64,000 bases of DNA, from assembly GCF_023897065.1 (NCBI RefSeq), contig NZ_JAMHIV010000028.1, forward strand, positions 62,001 to 126,000, read 5' to 3'. Origin of the DNA: Crossiella sp. SN42. GTDB lineage: Bacteria; Actinomycetota; Actinomycetes; Mycobacteriales; Pseudonocardiaceae. Below the pieces are notes generated by a model. That model searched no databases, was not told the origin of the DNA, and saw only the letters and a list, made by a program, of their open reading frames with translations. This document shows, piece after piece, positions 33,304 to 38,908 of this stretch (positions are counted from its first letter, which is position 1; each line of letters starts with the position of its first letter). The translations under genes and the position numbers were made by a program.

Positions 33304-33900
33304 ATGACCCATGACGAGCACCGGGAACCCACCGTCTACCTGCTCCGGCACGGCGAGACCGAGTGGTCCCGCTCCGGTCAGCACACCGGCCGCACCGACA
33401 TCCCGCTCACCGAGGACGGCCGCGCCCAGGCCGAGGCGGCCGGCCGGACCCTGGCCGCCCTCGGCGTCAAGGGCCGGGTGCTGACCAGTCCGCGGGGTCG
33501 GGCCCGGGTGACCGCCGAGCTGGCCGGGCTGCGGGTGGACGAGGTCACCGAGGACCTGGGCGAGTGGGACTACGGCGACTACGAGGGCCGGAGCACCCCG
33601 CAGATCAGGGAGACCGTGCCGGGCTGGACGGTCTGGACCCACCCGGTGCCCGGCGGCGAGTCCGCCGAGCAGGTGGGCGCGCGGGCCGACCGGCTGCTGG
33701 AGCGGGTGCGCGAGCTGTTGCCGGAGACCGACGTGGTGCTGGTCGGGCACGGGCACTTCAGCCGGGTGCTGGTGGCCCGCTGGCTGGACCTGCCCGCCAC
33801 CGCGGGGGTCCGGTTCGGGTTGGGCACGGCGGGGATCGCTGTGCTGGGATTCGAGCGTGGTGTGCCGCAGCTCGTGCGGCTGAACCTGCCGACCACCTGA
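33304..33900 (+). CDS. Histidine phosphatase family protein
   Basis: The 198-residue enzyme of the phosphoglycerate mutase-like superfamily has its phospho-accepting His in YLLRHGETEWS and conserved Arg residues in TSPRGRARVTAEL. The acid/base region is GEWDYGDYEGRST, and the second His lies in VLVGHGHFSRVL. These residues suit a small-molecule acid phosphatase; substrate is unknown. ATG 33304. A GNAT gene follows 18 bases later and is probably cotranscribed. Confidence 0.9.
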   Translation: MTHDEHREPTVYLLRHGETEWSRSGQHTGRTDIPLTEDGRAQAEAAGRTLAALGVKGRVLTSPRGRARVTAELAGLRVDEVTEDLGEWDYGDYEGRSTPQIRETVPGWTVWTHPVPGGESAEQVGARADRLLERVRELLPETDVVLVGHGHFSRVLVARWLDLPATAGVRFGLGTAGIAVLGFERGVPQLVRLNLPTT

Positions 33901-33918: not shown

Positions 33919-34404
33919 GTGACCGACGACCGCATTCGCCGGATCCGGCCGTCCGATGTGGACGCCGTCATCGGACTGATCGAGGGCCTGGCCGAGTACG
34001 AGCGCGCCCCGGAGTCCTGCACCATCACCGCCGAGCAGCTGCACACGGCGCTGTTCGGGGACAACCCCGCCCTGTTCGCGCACGTGGCCGAGGCCGACGG
34101 CGTGGTGGTCGGCTGCGCGCTGTGGTTCCTGAACTTCTCCACCTGGGAGGGCAGGCACGGCATCTACCTGGAGGACCTGTTCGTGCTGCCCGAGCACCGC
34201 GGCTCCGGCCTGGGCAAGGCGCTGCTGACCGAGCTGGCCAGGGAGTGCGTGCGGCGCGGGTACGGCCGGTTCGAGTGGTCCGTGCTGGACTGGAACACCC
34301 CGGCCATCGACTTCTACAAGTCCCTCGGCGCGGTGGCCATGGACGAGTGGACGGTCTACCGGCTGGACGGCGAAGCGCTGGCCGCGGCGGGCAAGCTCAC
34401 GTGA
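33919..34404 (+). CDS. GNAT-family N-acetyltransferase (diamine acetyltransferase-like)
   Basis: This 161-residue acetyl-CoA-dependent transferase shows the acetyl-CoA loop LPEHRGSGLGKALLTEL and the segments LWFLNFSTWEGRHGIYLEDLFV and WNTPAIDFYKSLGA. These are close to the spermidine/spermine or thialysine acetyltransferase group, so a polyamine or related amine is a plausible substrate, but I cannot prove it. GTG 33919 follows a clear GGGGAGGAA ribosome site. Its end overlaps the convergent DUF664 gene by eight bases. Confidence 0.9.
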   Translation: MTDDRIRRIRPSDVDAVIGLIEGLAEYERAPESCTITAEQLHTALFGDNPALFAHVAEADGVVVGCALWFLNFSTWEGRHGIYLEDLFVLPEHRGSGLGKALLTELARECVRRGYGRFEWSVLDWNTPAIDFYKSLGAVAMDEWTVYRLDGEALAAAGKLT

Positions 34405-34915
34405 TCAGCGGGTCCCCGGCGGCGGCGACCAGCTCGTAGGCGGTCGCCCCGTCCAGGGACTCGCGCAGCAGGTCGGCGTGACCGGCGTGCCGGGCGAACT
34501 CGGCGACCAGGTGGAACAGCACCCAGCGGGCGGTGCGGGTCTTGCCCTTGACCATCGGGTGGTTCAGCAGGTCCAGGTCCACCTCGCGGTCCAGGTCCAG
34601 CCCCGGCACCAGCGCCTCGGTGGCGGCGGCGACCTCGGCCAGCTCGGCCAGTGCCTGCGGCAGGGTCTCGCCGGGGTCCAACGCGTGGACTGGGCGGCTG
34701 TCGGCCGGGCGGCCCTGGAGCAGTTTGGTCCAGTTCCGCTCCACGCTGACCGCGTGCTTGACCAGCCCGGCCAGGGTCAGCTCGCTGGTCAGCGGGCGGC
34801 TGGCGGCGGTCTCCTCGCTCAGGTTGAGCACCGAGCGGCGCAGTGCGGCGCGTTGTTCGGCCAGGAAGGCCAGCAGCGCGTCCCGTTCGTCAGCGACCTC
34901 GCGAACCATTGCCAT
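34397..34915 (-). CDS. DinB/DUF664 family protein
   Basis: The 172-residue four-helix DinB-fold protein of the DUF664 type has metal-binding His candidates in LAGLVKHAVSVERNW and in VLFHLVAEFARHAGHADLLRE. Relatives include mycothiol- or bacillithiol-dependent S-transferases and many proteins of unknown role. Its start overlaps the upstream cyclodipeptide-synthase-like gene by 26 bases, so the two should be cotranscribed and translationally coupled. ATG 34915 is taken as start; a second ATG lies two codons in. Substrate is unknown. Confidence 0.85.
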   Translation of the reverse strand: MAMVREVADERDALLAFLAEQRAALRRSVLNLSEETAASRPLTSELTLAGLVKHAVSVERNWTKLLQGRPADSRPVHALDPGETLPQALAELAEVAAATEALVPGLDLDREVDLDLLNHPMVKGKTRTARWVLFHLVAEFARHAGHADLLRESLDGATAYELVAAAGDPLIT

Positions 34916-35603
34916 GGACGTGGATCCTGCCAGGGATCTCCGCCCGCCGGGCCGCGATGGTGCGCAGGGTCAGCGAGTCCTGGCCGGGGCGCGGGCACAG
35001 CTCGGGCGGGGCGGCGGCGAGCACCTCGGCCAGCTCCAGCGGCCGGGGCTGGCAGCGGGTGGACTCGGGCACGCCGAGGATGCCGGCGCCGTCGAGGGCC
35101 AGCGGCAGCTCGGCCAGCAGCGAGTGCGCCGCGACCTGCACCTGCCCGCGGGTGCACAGCGCGCCGGGCACCCGGTCGGCCAGCATGGTCGCGGTGGCCC
35201 GCAGGCAGGCCGCGCGGAACGCCGGGTTGCTCTCGTAGGTCTGCCTGACCTGCTCGAACAGCAGGCGGTAGCGGTAGCGGGCGGCCAGCTCGGTCCAGGG
35301 CACCACCAGCGAGCCGGGCAGCGCCAGCGCGGCCAGCGCGCGCCGGGCCCTGGTCTGCAGGCGCTTGCCCTCGCTGCGCGCCTTGTGCAGGGCGCGGTGG
35401 GTCTTGTAGCCGACCGCGCGGTAGGTGTGCACGGCAGGCAGGTCGACCACCACCACGTGCAGCGCGGTGAAGTTGGCGGCCGCCCAGCTCGCGTAGCCGA
35501 GCAGCTCCTCGTCGACCTGGTCGAAGGGGCCAAGGCCGAGCAGCGCGTGCGCGGCCCGGCCGACGGACGTGCGCGGTCGCGGGATCTGACCGGGTGGCGT
35601 CAC
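34890..35603 (-). CDS. Cyclodipeptide synthase homologue lacking canonical catalytic residues
   Basis: The 237-residue protein is the length of AlbC (239). It aligns with tRNA-dependent cyclodipeptide synthases: HALLGLGPF, YRAVGYKTHRALHKARSEGK, FRAACLRAT, LLAELPLALDG and GILGVPES. The basic helix thought to bind tRNA (KARSEGKRLQTRARRAL) is kept. By alignment to AlbC, catalytic Ser37 is Gly (codon GGC), Tyr178 is Ser, Tyr202 is Gln, and only Glu182 remains. It should not form cyclodipeptides by the known covalent mechanism. Start GTG 35603 has no clear ribosome site. No oxidase or P450 tailoring gene is nearby. Confidence 0.8.
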   Translation of the reverse strand: MTPPGQIPRPRTSVGRAAHALLGLGPFDQVDEELLGYASWAAANFTALHVVVVDLPAVHTYRAVGYKTHRALHKARSEGKRLQTRARRALAALALPGSLVVPWTELAARYRYRLLFEQVRQTYESNPAFRAACLRATATMLADRVPGALCTRGQVQVAAHSLLAELPLALDGAGILGVPESTRCQPRPLELAEVLAAAPPELCPRPGQDSLTLRTIAARRAEIPGRIHVHGNGSRGR

Positions 35604-35657
35604 GACATCGATTGGAGCACGACACGCGCGGGTGCTCCCAGTCCCTTCATTGAGTGA

Positions 35658-36581
35658 TCAACCCTTTGGCGCATCGGCGGTGTCCCGATCGGCCCAGTGC
35701 GCGCGCAGCGCGGCCACCGTCGCCGCGATCGCCGGCCGCCGGGTGGCCTGCTGCCGCCACACCGCGAACAGCCGCCTGGTCGGCGTCGGGACCAGCGGCC
35801 GGACCACCACGCCCTCGGGCACCGGCCCCCGTCCGAGCCGGGGCAGCAGGCACACGCCGAGCCCGCGCGCGGCCAGCGCCAGCTGCGACTGGTACTCGGT
35901 GACCTGGTGCGCGAGCACCGGTTCCACCCCGCCGCCGCGCAGGGTGCGGATCAGCCAGTCGTGGCAGATCGACCCCGGCGGCTGGCAGATCCAGCGCGCG
36001 CCGATGAGCTCCAGCGGGCTCAGCTCGGTCCGGGTGGCCAGCGGATGGTCCTGGTGCAGCAGCACGTCGGCCACGTCCACCCCGACGTCGGTGCGGGCCA
36101 GCCCCTCCGGCATGGCCAGCGGGGTGTTCTCCCAGTCGTGCACCACGGCCAGGTCCAGCTCGCCGCGGGCCACCAGGTCCACCGCCAGGTGCGGGTCCAG
36201 CTCGGTCAGCCGCACGTCCAGCTCCGGGTAAGCCCGCGCCAGCTCGGCCAGCGGGCCGGGCATCAGCCCGCGGACGGCGGTGGCGAAGGTGGCCACGCTG
36301 AGCCGCCCGATCGGCGTGCCGCGCTGCTCCTCCAGCCGCACCTCGGCCTGTTCGACCAGGGCCAGCACCTGCTTGGCGGTGCCTGCCAGGTCCTCGGCGG
36401 CGTCGGTGAGCGCGATGCCGCGGCCGCGGCGTTCCAGCAGCACGGTGCCGGTCTCGCGTTCCAGCTTGGCCAGCTGCTGGGACACCGCGGAGGGGGTGTA
36501 GCCGAGGGCGGCGGCGGCCGCGTTGACCGAGCCGTGCACCGCGACGGCGTGCAGGGCGCGGAGTCTGCCGAGATCGAGCAT
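35658..36581 (-). CDS. LysR-family transcriptional regulator
   Basis: The 307-residue regulator has a winged helix (~1-65, LRALHAVAVHGSVNAAAAAL, then TPSAVSQQLAKLE) and the LysR effector domain (~90-295). It is divergent from an EamA transporter across 72 bp and probably controls it. The -10 element TAGTAT ends 6 bases before its ATG, so its transcript is likely leaderless. The effector is unknown. Confidence 0.93.
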   Translation of the reverse strand: MLDLGRLRALHAVAVHGSVNAAAAALGYTPSAVSQQLAKLERETGTVLLERRGRGIALTDAAEDLAGTAKQVLALVEQAEVRLEEQRGTPIGRLSVATFATAVRGLMPGPLAELARAYPELDVRLTELDPHLAVDLVARGELDLAVVHDWENTPLAMPEGLARTDVGVDVADVLLHQDHPLATRTELSPLELIGARWICQPPGSICHDWLIRTLRGGGVEPVLAHQVTEYQSQLALAARGLGVCLLPRLGRGPVPEGVVVRPLVPTPTRRLFAVWRQQATRRPAIAATVAALRAHWADRDTADAPKG

Positions 36582-36593: not shown

Positions 36594-36653
36594 AACAGAT
36601 CCGCGTAGTGGATTTCGCTGGTGCTTAACTCTCAGCCGGGTGAGGCTGGTGCC

Positions 36654-37592
36654 GTGAAACCCGCGCACCTCGCCCTCGCCGTACTCGTCGCCCTGATCTG
36701 GGGCCTCAACTTCGTGGTCATCCAGATCGGCCTGGCCGAGGTACCCCCGTTCCTGTTCTCCGCCCTGCGCTTCGCCGCCGCGGCGCTGCCCGCGCTGTTC
36801 TTCGTCGGCTCGCCGCGGGTGGCCTGGCGCTGGGTGCTGCTGATGGGCCTGACCCTGGGCGTGGTCAAGTTCGGCCTGCTCTTCGGCGGCATGTACGCCG
36901 GTGCGCCTGCCGGGCTGTCCTCGCTGGTGCTGCAGAGCCAGGTGCTGTTCACCGTGCTGTTCGCCACCCTGCTGCTCAAGGAGCGGCCCACCCCGCTGCG
37001 GCTGGCCGGCACCGGGATCGCGCTGGCCGGCATGGTGCTGGTGGTCGTGGACTACGGCGCGGACAGCCCGGTGGGCGCGCTGCTCATGGTGGTGGGCGCG
37101 GCCGCGGTGTGGAGCCTGACCAACATCATCACCCGGTACGCCGCCCCGCCGGACATGCTGCGGTTCATGGTGTGGGTCAGCGCGGTGCCGATCCTGCCGC
37201 TGCTCGCCCTCTCCGCCGCCTTCGAAGGCGTGGACAGCGGGCTGAACGCGTTGGCGCACCTGGACTTCGCCGGCATCGGCGCGGTGCTCTACGTGGGCTG
37301 GGCGGCCACCCTGGCCGGATTCGGCATCTGGGGCTTCCTGCTGCGGGTCTACCCGGCCACCGCGGTGGCGCCGTTCTCCCTGCTGGTGCCGGTGTTCGGC
37401 ATGTCCTCGGCCGCGCTGCTGCTGGGCGAGGCGCTGACCCCGCTGCGGCTGGCCGCCGCCGCGCTGGTCATCCTCGGCGTGGCGCTGGCCTCCGGCGTGG
37501 TCAAGGCCGGGGCGCGGCGACCAGCGTCGCACCCCGGCCCAGCCCGGCTCAGCGCTTGCGATCCCGCCGATCCCGCGCTTGTTCCTCGGTGA
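36654..37592 (+). CDS. EamA/DMT-family transporter
   Basis: The 312-residue inner-membrane protein has about ten hydrophobic helices in two EamA repeats (first LVALIWGLNFVVIQIGLAEVPP, second around VGAAAVWSLTNIITRYA). Such proteins usually export amino acids or other metabolites. GTG 36654 is preferred to an ATG at 36621, since the first helix then starts near residue 5. It is divergent from the LysR gene. The hydrophilic C-terminal tail overlaps the convergent PRC-barrel gene by 44 bases. Confidence 0.9.
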   Translation: MKPAHLALAVLVALIWGLNFVVIQIGLAEVPPFLFSALRFAAAALPALFFVGSPRVAWRWVLLMGLTLGVVKFGLLFGGMYAGAPAGLSSLVLQSQVLFTVLFATLLLKERPTPLRLAGTGIALAGMVLVVVDYGADSPVGALLMVVGAAAVWSLTNIITRYAAPPDMLRFMVWVSAVPILPLLALSAAFEGVDSGLNALAHLDFAGIGAVLYVGWAATLAGFGIWGFLLRVYPATAVAPFSLLVPVFGMSSAALLLGEALTPLRLAAAALVILGVALASGVVKAGARRPASHPGPARLSACDPADPALVPR

Positions 37593-38488: not shown

Positions 38489-38908
38489 CTAGGACTTCTG
38501 GTCAGCCGAGTCGTCGTAGGGGCCGATGCCGAGCACCCAGGCTCGCGCGTGCGTACTGAACAGCAGCACCAGCACGCTCACGCAGTAGATCGCGCCCAGC
38601 GAGCCGATCAGCCAGCGCCCGGACGGCCCGAGGGTGTACCAGGCCACGCCGAGCAGCAGCAGCTGCAGCACCACCGCCGGCGAGCGGGCCCAGCGCTTGC
38701 CGCGCAGCAGCCCGACCGCGGTGGCGATGACCGCGGCGGTCAGGATCGCGAAGTACCCGGCCTCACCGAAGACGTTGCCCGGTTTGGGCGCGCCGTTGAG
38801 CGCGCGGACCAGCAGGGCGACCACCAGGACCACACCCGCCAGGCCCTGCAACCCGACCAGCAGACCGGCGAGGCGCACCGCGCGCGGCGCACCCAGGGCT
38901 TGTGACAT
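38489..38908 (-). CDS. Four-helix integral membrane protein (Rv3217c-like)
   Basis: The 139-residue protein has four predicted transmembrane helices (about 12-36, 50-65, 78-92, 100-117) and a short acidic C-terminus (GIGPYDDSADQKS). It occupies the position of M. tuberculosis Rv3217c, next to the lipid kinase and whiB1. Function is unknown. The start is supported by a TAGCCT -10 element 6 bases upstream. Confidence 0.82.
   Translation of the reverse strand: MSQALGAPRAVRLAGLLVGLQGLAGVVLVVALLVRALNGAPKPGNVFGEAGYFAILTAAVIATAVGLLRGKRWARSPAVVLQLLLLGVAWYTLGPSGRWLIGSLGAIYCVSVLVLLFSTHARAWVLGIGPYDDSADQKS

Follow-up and report, generated by a model that had tools for sequence, protein, structure and literature searches.

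What becomes of a cyclodipeptide synthase (CDPS) that has lost the serine which accepts the aminoacyl group? CDPSs join two amino acids taken from tRNAs, diverting aminoacyl-tRNA from translation, and a gene of Crossiella sp. SN42 raises this question, since its product resembles these enzymes along its length and has a glycine where the serine is expected. The gene, called here CDPSx, lies in a stretch of 64,000 nucleotides that was analysed as a whole (the window), and its features and those of its neighbours are collected in Table 1. A preliminary description of this DNA had recognized a CDPS homologue, and the profile search it called for agreed: CDPSx matches PF16715 (Pfam CDPS) with 126.7 bits (E 1.4e-36, cut-off 27) and TIGR04539 (NCBIfam) with 138.3 bits against a cut-off of 45. 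Searched with phmmer against solved structures, it retrieved the CDPSs Rv2275 (2x9q, E 7.2e-13), YvmC (3oqh, E 7.9e-13), BtCDPS (6ztu, E 2.2e-10) and AlbC (3oqv, E 2e-8). Judged by these matches, CDPSx belongs by homology to the CDPS family, far beyond chance. The intact reading frame is by itself weak evidence for a working gene, because the DNA is GC-rich and long antisense ORFs are seen in the window; protein-level constraint was therefore tested separately.

Table 1. Features of the CDPSx locus, in window coordinates
Feature	Position	Strand	Remarks
CDPSx, serine-less CDPS homologue, 237 aa	34890..35603	-	GTG start at 35603; stop ends at 34890
Gly25 codon (GGC), AlbC Ser37 position	35529..35531	-	Gly in 5/5 Crossiella copies
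Ser161 codon, AlbC Tyr178 position	35121..35123	-	Ser in 4/5 Crossiella copies, Gly in G186
Glu165 codon, AlbC Glu182 position	35109..35111	-	Glu retained in 5/5 Crossiella copies
Gln185 codon (CAG), AlbC Tyr202 position	35049..35051	-	Gln in 5/5 Crossiella copies
Residues 59-79, 21-residue run invariant in five Crossiella copies	35367..35429	-	equalled in 66/100000 permutations
Residues 66-91, counterpart of AlbC basic helix alpha4	35331..35408	-	net charge +8 in five copies
MST/DinB-type gene (Pfam mycothiol-S-transferase)	34397..34915	-	downstream, overlaps CDPSx by 26 nt
LysR-type regulator	35658..36581	-	directly upstream of CDPSx, same strand
EamA-family transporter	36621..37592	+	divergent from LysR gene
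GNAT acetyltransferase	33919..34404	+	convergent with MST; synteny anchor
Histidine phosphatase	33304..33900	+	synteny anchor, also at the intact g22 CDPS locus
Small ORF without Pfam match over cut-off	38489..38908	-	synteny anchor, other side

The catalytic positions of CDPSx were assigned from five pairwise alignments and several multiple alignments. Glu182 of AlbC is retained, and Ser37, Tyr178 and Tyr202 are all replaced; the preliminary description had read these replacements correctly, including the GGC codon at the serine position and the exchange of the two tyrosines for Ser and Gln. Asp28 stands in place of Asn40 and Pro186 (Ile in G186), directly after Gln185, in place of His203, and two residues just past the old Ser loop are missing in the multiple alignment. 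At the positions of the NYH (Asn40-His203) and XYP (X40-Pro203) types the copies therefore read Asp-Pro in four cases and Asp-Ile in one, and their neighbour in the tree is an NYH-type group. The option of shifting the alignment so that a serine falls at position 37 was considered and rejected, since Ser, Thr and Cys are all absent from the former Ser loop in each of the five Crossiella copies. The P1 positions are partly retained (Leu21; Trp103, which is common to CDPSx and the CDPSs of genus g22 described below), and a new residue, Arg183, has become fixed at a P1 position in the CDPSx clade; together with His160, Cys184 and Gln185 it forms a set of new invariant polar residues at or beside positions of the old site. 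CDPSx thus shares with AlbC/Snou-CDPS, Rv2275 and YvmC the family by sequence, the Glu182 and the basic alpha4 region, and differs from AlbC at Ser37, Asn40, Tyr178, Tyr202 and His203.

The residues of CDPSx make it unlikely that the protein works as a cyclodipeptide synthase: with Gly at position 37 and both tyrosines gone, it should form no acyl-enzyme and no cyclodipeptide. That it still makes cyclodipeptides through another nucleophile of its own, for instance Cys184, seems extremely improbable. All members of the clade have this cysteine, which sits next to the Tyr202 position, and a BtCDPS variant in which Cys replaces the serine itself (S33C) was active with a small-molecule substrate (PMC8084100). 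However, three of the four catalytic residues were lost together, position 161 is not conserved (Gly in G186), the loop offers no substitute for the serine, and the same paper describes BtCDPS S33A as inactive (PMC8084100).

The loss runs through all the Crossiella genomes searched. A search of 390 genomes of the family found CDPSx orthologues in all five Crossiella genomes (G000, which includes the window, and G185 to G188, comprising two close pairs and thus about three lineages), the next best matches in the family dropping to 38% identity, and all five copies show the catalytic pattern Gly-Asp-Ser/Gly-Glu-Gln. The preliminary description had asked whether a clade shares Gly, Ser and Gln at the three positions; it does, with Gly for Ser in G186. 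For comparison, CDPSs were surveyed in these 390 genomes and in 394 genomes drawn from the class, giving 154 CDPS ORFs, or 141 after merging identical domains; outside the 141 are two pieces in G048, pieces in G370, G091:C16, G002 and G782:261652, the intact copy of G188, the CDPSs of G1037 and G986 and that of a viral contig. Position 37 is Ser in 133 of the 141, Gly in five (all from Crossiella), Ala in two and Arg in one, and no sequences but the Crossiella five are missing as many as three catalytic residues out of four; the Arg-bearing one is missing two. A scan of public genome contigs, with search patterns that reach close relatives only, brought up one relative, in Crossiella sp. S99.2, and the viral contigs searched contained no CDPSx relative and one ordinary CDPS. 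Recent decay or an assembly error was ruled out as the source of the pattern by the agreement of five assemblies and by the constraint on the protein described next.

To quantify this constraint, the observed substitutions were dealt out randomly in 2000 neutral draws per pair of copies, for five of the ten possible pairs. The observed CDPSx identity exceeded every one of the 2000 draws in three diverged pairs (observed/mean 0.613/0.447, 0.626/0.472 and 0.791/0.697) and was reached in 14/2000 and 226/2000 draws in the two closest pairs; in the two pairs involving G186, 1803/2000 and 1806/2000 draws gained an in-frame stop. Across the five copies, 125 of 239 aligned columns are invariant, including the 21-residue run of Table 1, and at 54 positions the five share a residue that none of the ten intact copies compared (seven from g22, three from Crossiella) has; 49 of these positions are ungapped in the compared copies, and five, the start residue among them, are partly gapped. 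The claim that this is not an ordinary decayed gene is thus upheld by the identity above the neutral null and by the invariant run. As judged from sequence comparison, Crossiella as a genus (5/5 genomes) carries a serine-less and constrained CDPS clade. In residues 58-82 (35358-35432) silent changes also look scarce, with 2 among 24 unchanged residues between G000 and G186, and there may be a constraint on the DNA or RNA too.

The strength of the selection is another matter. Values of dN/dS, with dS obtained by a simple method that is biased at the GC3 of 0.91-0.96 found here, were 0.22-0.63 for CDPSx (ten pairs) against 0.10-0.30 for the intact Crossiella paralogue (three pairs), and for G000-G186 and G000-G187 those of CDPSx were above seven of eight neighbours, the MST gene being looser still. 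Judged by these ratios, selection on CDPSx is purifying, and since they lie above those of the paralogue and of most neighbours, it may be partly relaxed, chiefly on the G186 branch. One could go further and see in CDPSx a gene under relaxed selection that is on its way out after the loss of activity, a reading to which the raised dN/dS, the long stem branch of the clade (1.71 changes per site) and the C-terminal tail, which varies among the copies, all lend something. Against it, the gene is full length and in place in 5/5 genomes at identities down to 61%, its diverged pairs stand above a neutral null in which most G186 draws gain a stop, and it has kept an invariant block and fixed derived residues, so that we consider this course distinctly unlikely.

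Where the clade came from was approached by trees and by synteny. Rows shorter than 200 aa were left out of the trees, two of which were also built without 12 long-branch rows, and for the maximum-likelihood tree the other CDPSs were thinned at 60% identity, to 48 rows. In this 48-row tree the five Crossiella copies join at 100/100 at the end of their long stem, and seven CDPSs of genus g22 are their sister with a support of 96/82. A larger quick tree first placed the clade beside two very long-branch rows; after removal of the 12 long rows it gave the g22 placement with an SH-aLRT of 86, flagged as a spot where long branches come together. The chromosomal context is concordant with this placement: in four g22 stretches of 18-20 kb, the CDPS gene occupies the same interval in the same orientation, flanked by five to eight window genes in the same order, the phosphatase being inverted in one stretch (L217) and a GNAT match being found in none of the four. 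At the short g22 loci the ORF at 38489 lies beside the CDPS in 7/7 and the phosphatase in 6/7. In 20 of 26 phosphatase loci outside Crossiella, viewed over about 1.5 kb on each side, the GNAT gene was found; 10 had the ORF at 38489, and a single one, from g22, had a CDPS.

The g22 proteins (L042 and L044-L049) are 33-35% identical to the window protein and have a recognisably similar helix block, but, unlike CDPSx, they possess all four catalytic residues as well as Asn40 and His203 (S-N-Y-E-Y-H). Their loci also differ from the window in that matches to the MST, LysR and EamA genes were not found in the four 18-20 kb stretches, and at L042 a DUF4259 gene adjoins the CDPS. Because of the tree placement, the shared synteny and the intact g22 residues, CDPSx and an intact CDPS are most likely orthologues, although there is some chance that the picture is an effect of long branches or of two separate insertions at the site. 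As sister to an intact and syntenic CDPS, CDPSx would probably derive from an active enzyme that lost its chemistry, and the two together offer a before/after pair for a CDPS scaffold without its chemistry.

What has been kept is the region that faces the tRNA in related enzymes. The preliminary description had stated that Glu182 and a basic helix are conserved, and both are there: Glu165 aligns with the former, and the counterpart of alpha4 contains nine Lys/Arg and one Glu in 26 residues in 5/5 copies. The same segment in 136 other CDPSs has a mean net charge of 5.08 (sd 1.67), and 5 of them attain 8 or more. The longest invariant run (59-79) overlaps this helix counterpart (66-91). According to PMC4159871, a positively charged alpha4 patch binds aminoacyl-tRNA in AlbC-type CDPSs. 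The XYP enzyme Nbra-CDPS behaves differently (PMC13062777): it holds the tRNA stem through strands beta2 and beta7, not through alpha4, so that the helix argument for CDPSx rests on AlbC-type enzymes. The paper also has Tyr172 and Tyr194 of Nbra-CDPS, the equivalents of Tyr178 and Tyr202, touching the 3' adenosine of the tRNA; CDPSx is without both, and its binding of the 3' end could therefore be weakened. A structural model did not help to decide: AlphaFold2, from an alignment of the window protein and L003 only, gave a mean pLDDT of 45.7 and a pTM of 0.35, with a helix predicted at 69-92 in this low-confidence model, and although the top 46 Foldseek rows were all CDPSs, their TM of about 0.2-0.3 (rmsd above 12 A) is too low for any geometric conclusion to be drawn from the model.

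With an intact tRNA-facing helix, the simplest reading is that of a protein that binds the acceptor arm of tRNA. On balance we favour, with some reserve, a CDPSx that is a repurposed pseudoenzyme: it would bind the (aminoacyl-)tRNA acceptor arm, make no cyclodipeptide and act in a sensing, sequestering or delivery role. In this scenario, an active CDPS of NYH type was inherited vertically at this chromosomal site, and the serine that accepts the aminoacyl group would have disappeared from it, along with two catalytic tyrosines, in the Crossiella ancestor. The protein would then have been kept since its basic helix still binds the acceptor arm; it would hold the end of the tRNA so that the aminoacyl group lies inside or close to the former P1 pocket, could form neither acyl-enzyme nor cyclodipeptide, and might serve as a tRNA sensor, a sequestering protein or a delivery protein together with its LysR and MST neighbours. 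We infer tRNA binding from the retained helix and from the Ser-to-Ala variant of Nbra-CDPS (S34A), which still binds an alanyl-microhelix and tRNA (PMC13062777). The suggestion of the preliminary description, a pseudoenzyme that still binds aminoacyl-tRNA, is the best reading, with its binding half a deduction from the helix and this mutant.

CDPSx resembles the Nbra-CDPS S34A and BtCDPS S33A mutants in being a CDPS without the serine (PMC13062777 and PMC8084100); they are man-made single changes, whereas CDPSx is natural, occurs in 5/5 Crossiella genomes and has also lost both tyrosines. The Ser-to-Ala mutant with which tRNA complexes were captured has in CDPSx a natural counterpart. A published survey of the CDPS family removed serine-less sequences. 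Our literature search, from which subscription papers and preprints fell outside, returned no paper joining cyclodipeptide synthases with Crossiella or with a pseudoenzyme, and PMC9415966 gave no match for CDPS terms.

It could instead be some other ligand, such as a protein partner, a nucleotide or another RNA, and not tRNA, for which the Rossmann-like fold has been retained. The Ser loop and the positions of both catalytic tyrosines have been remodelled, and the many derived fixed residues suggest a new surface; but the longest block without variation coincides in part with the counterpart of the tRNA helix, whose charge few other family members reach, and we hold this reading to be unlikely.

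The neighbourhood gives some indications about function. The order LysR - CDPSx - MST - GNAT - histidine phosphatase is the same in 5/5 Crossiella genomes, and further flanking genes presumably encode a kinase, a sigma factor, a malic enzyme and a sugar epimerase. The EamA gene finds its best NCBIfam match in an O-acetylserine/cysteine exporter, with 198.9 bits where the cut-off is 472. Together, the MST and EamA neighbours give a hint, a weak one, of thiol or amino-acid physiology. It is weak because the spacing between CDPSx and MST varies, from an overlap in the window and in G188 to 48 nt in G186, 91 nt in G187 and 326 nt in G185, and because the MST protein of G186 (L067:8571-9089) reads LVKR in place of the LVKH of the other four, an Arg thus replacing the first His of the motif, which we take to be a metal ligand. 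As a gene linked to CDPSs elsewhere, MST was tried and rejected: around its closest relatives outside Crossiella (26 loci, viewed over about 1.5 kb on each side) there was no CDPSx match, nor any match to the other window genes searched for. MST also had no match among solved structures.

The preliminary description had also thought of a different acceptor, such as a partner protein or a small thiol, and these neighbours bear on such a possibility, in which CDPSx would still be an enzyme and an external thiol or amine (e.g., mycothiol, by way of MST/DinB) would take the aminoacyl group from aminoacyl-tRNA, the nucleophile entering the space left by Gly in place of Ser37 and Glu165 holding the alpha-amine. 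The retention of Glu182 in 5/5 copies beside the invariant His160, Arg183, Cys184 and Gln185 would suit such a mechanism, as would an MST gene downstream in 5/5 genomes, overlapping CDPSx in the window, and a divergent EamA gene most like a cysteine/O-acetylserine exporter. The variable CDPSx-MST spacing, the Arg at the first putative ligand His in G186 and the lack of CDPSx near the 26 MST relatives outside Crossiella speak against it, as does the disappearance of Tyr178 and Tyr202, which make 3'-end contacts in Nbra-CDPS according to PMC13062777; an open literature search, moreover, found no paper joining a mycothiol S-transferase with aminoacyl-tRNA. We judge this mechanism quite unlikely. 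Its bolder version would have CDPSx as the founder of a new tRNA-dependent activity that hands the aminoacyl group straight to a soluble thiol or amine of which MST/DinB would be the supplier or the user, skipping the acyl-enzyme and originating in the loss of the serine from a syntenic, once active cyclodipeptide synthase; this we would call a long shot, no better placed than the gradual loss of the gene discussed above.

Within the spacer between LysR and CDPSx (35604-35657), a 17-nt string, CCCGCGCGTGTCGTGCT, is identical in the five Crossiella genomes while the length of the spacer varies; from its conservation it is perhaps a site for the regulator. A structured RNA leader between the two genes gave no signal (z 0.84 to 1.55, four of the five leaders folded).

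The genome of the window also encodes a second, intact CDPS of NYH type (L068:9103-9864, G000 contig C9), with thioredoxin, M1 peptidase and cytosine/purine permease genes on its flank by Pfam. A second CDPS match is present in 4/5 Crossiella genomes and absent from G186. A role of CDPSx as subunit partner of this paralogue was considered and is unlikely to be essential, G186 (98% complete, one contig) having CDPSx only.

Other CDPSs have lost the serine as well. Two sequences of genus g35, L166 (G350) and L082/L181 (G364), carry Ala at the Ser37 position and are the sole CDPS match in their genomes. They resemble CDPSx in this natural loss and differ from it in that Asn40, Tyr178, Glu182, Tyr202 and His203 are intact and L082 lies elsewhere in the tree; the four ORFs flanking the L181 CDPS had no Pfam match at E 1e-5. 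A CDPS-like protein of G795 (L138, 1348-2367) has Arg at Ser37 and Phe at Tyr202 and is possibly a third natural loss of the serine. The Ala and Arg cases suggest that non-catalytic CDPSs may recur. Finally, a CDPS with a canonical Ser loop is found on a 55-kb contig classed as viral (L183, IMGVR_UViG_3300049926_000093).
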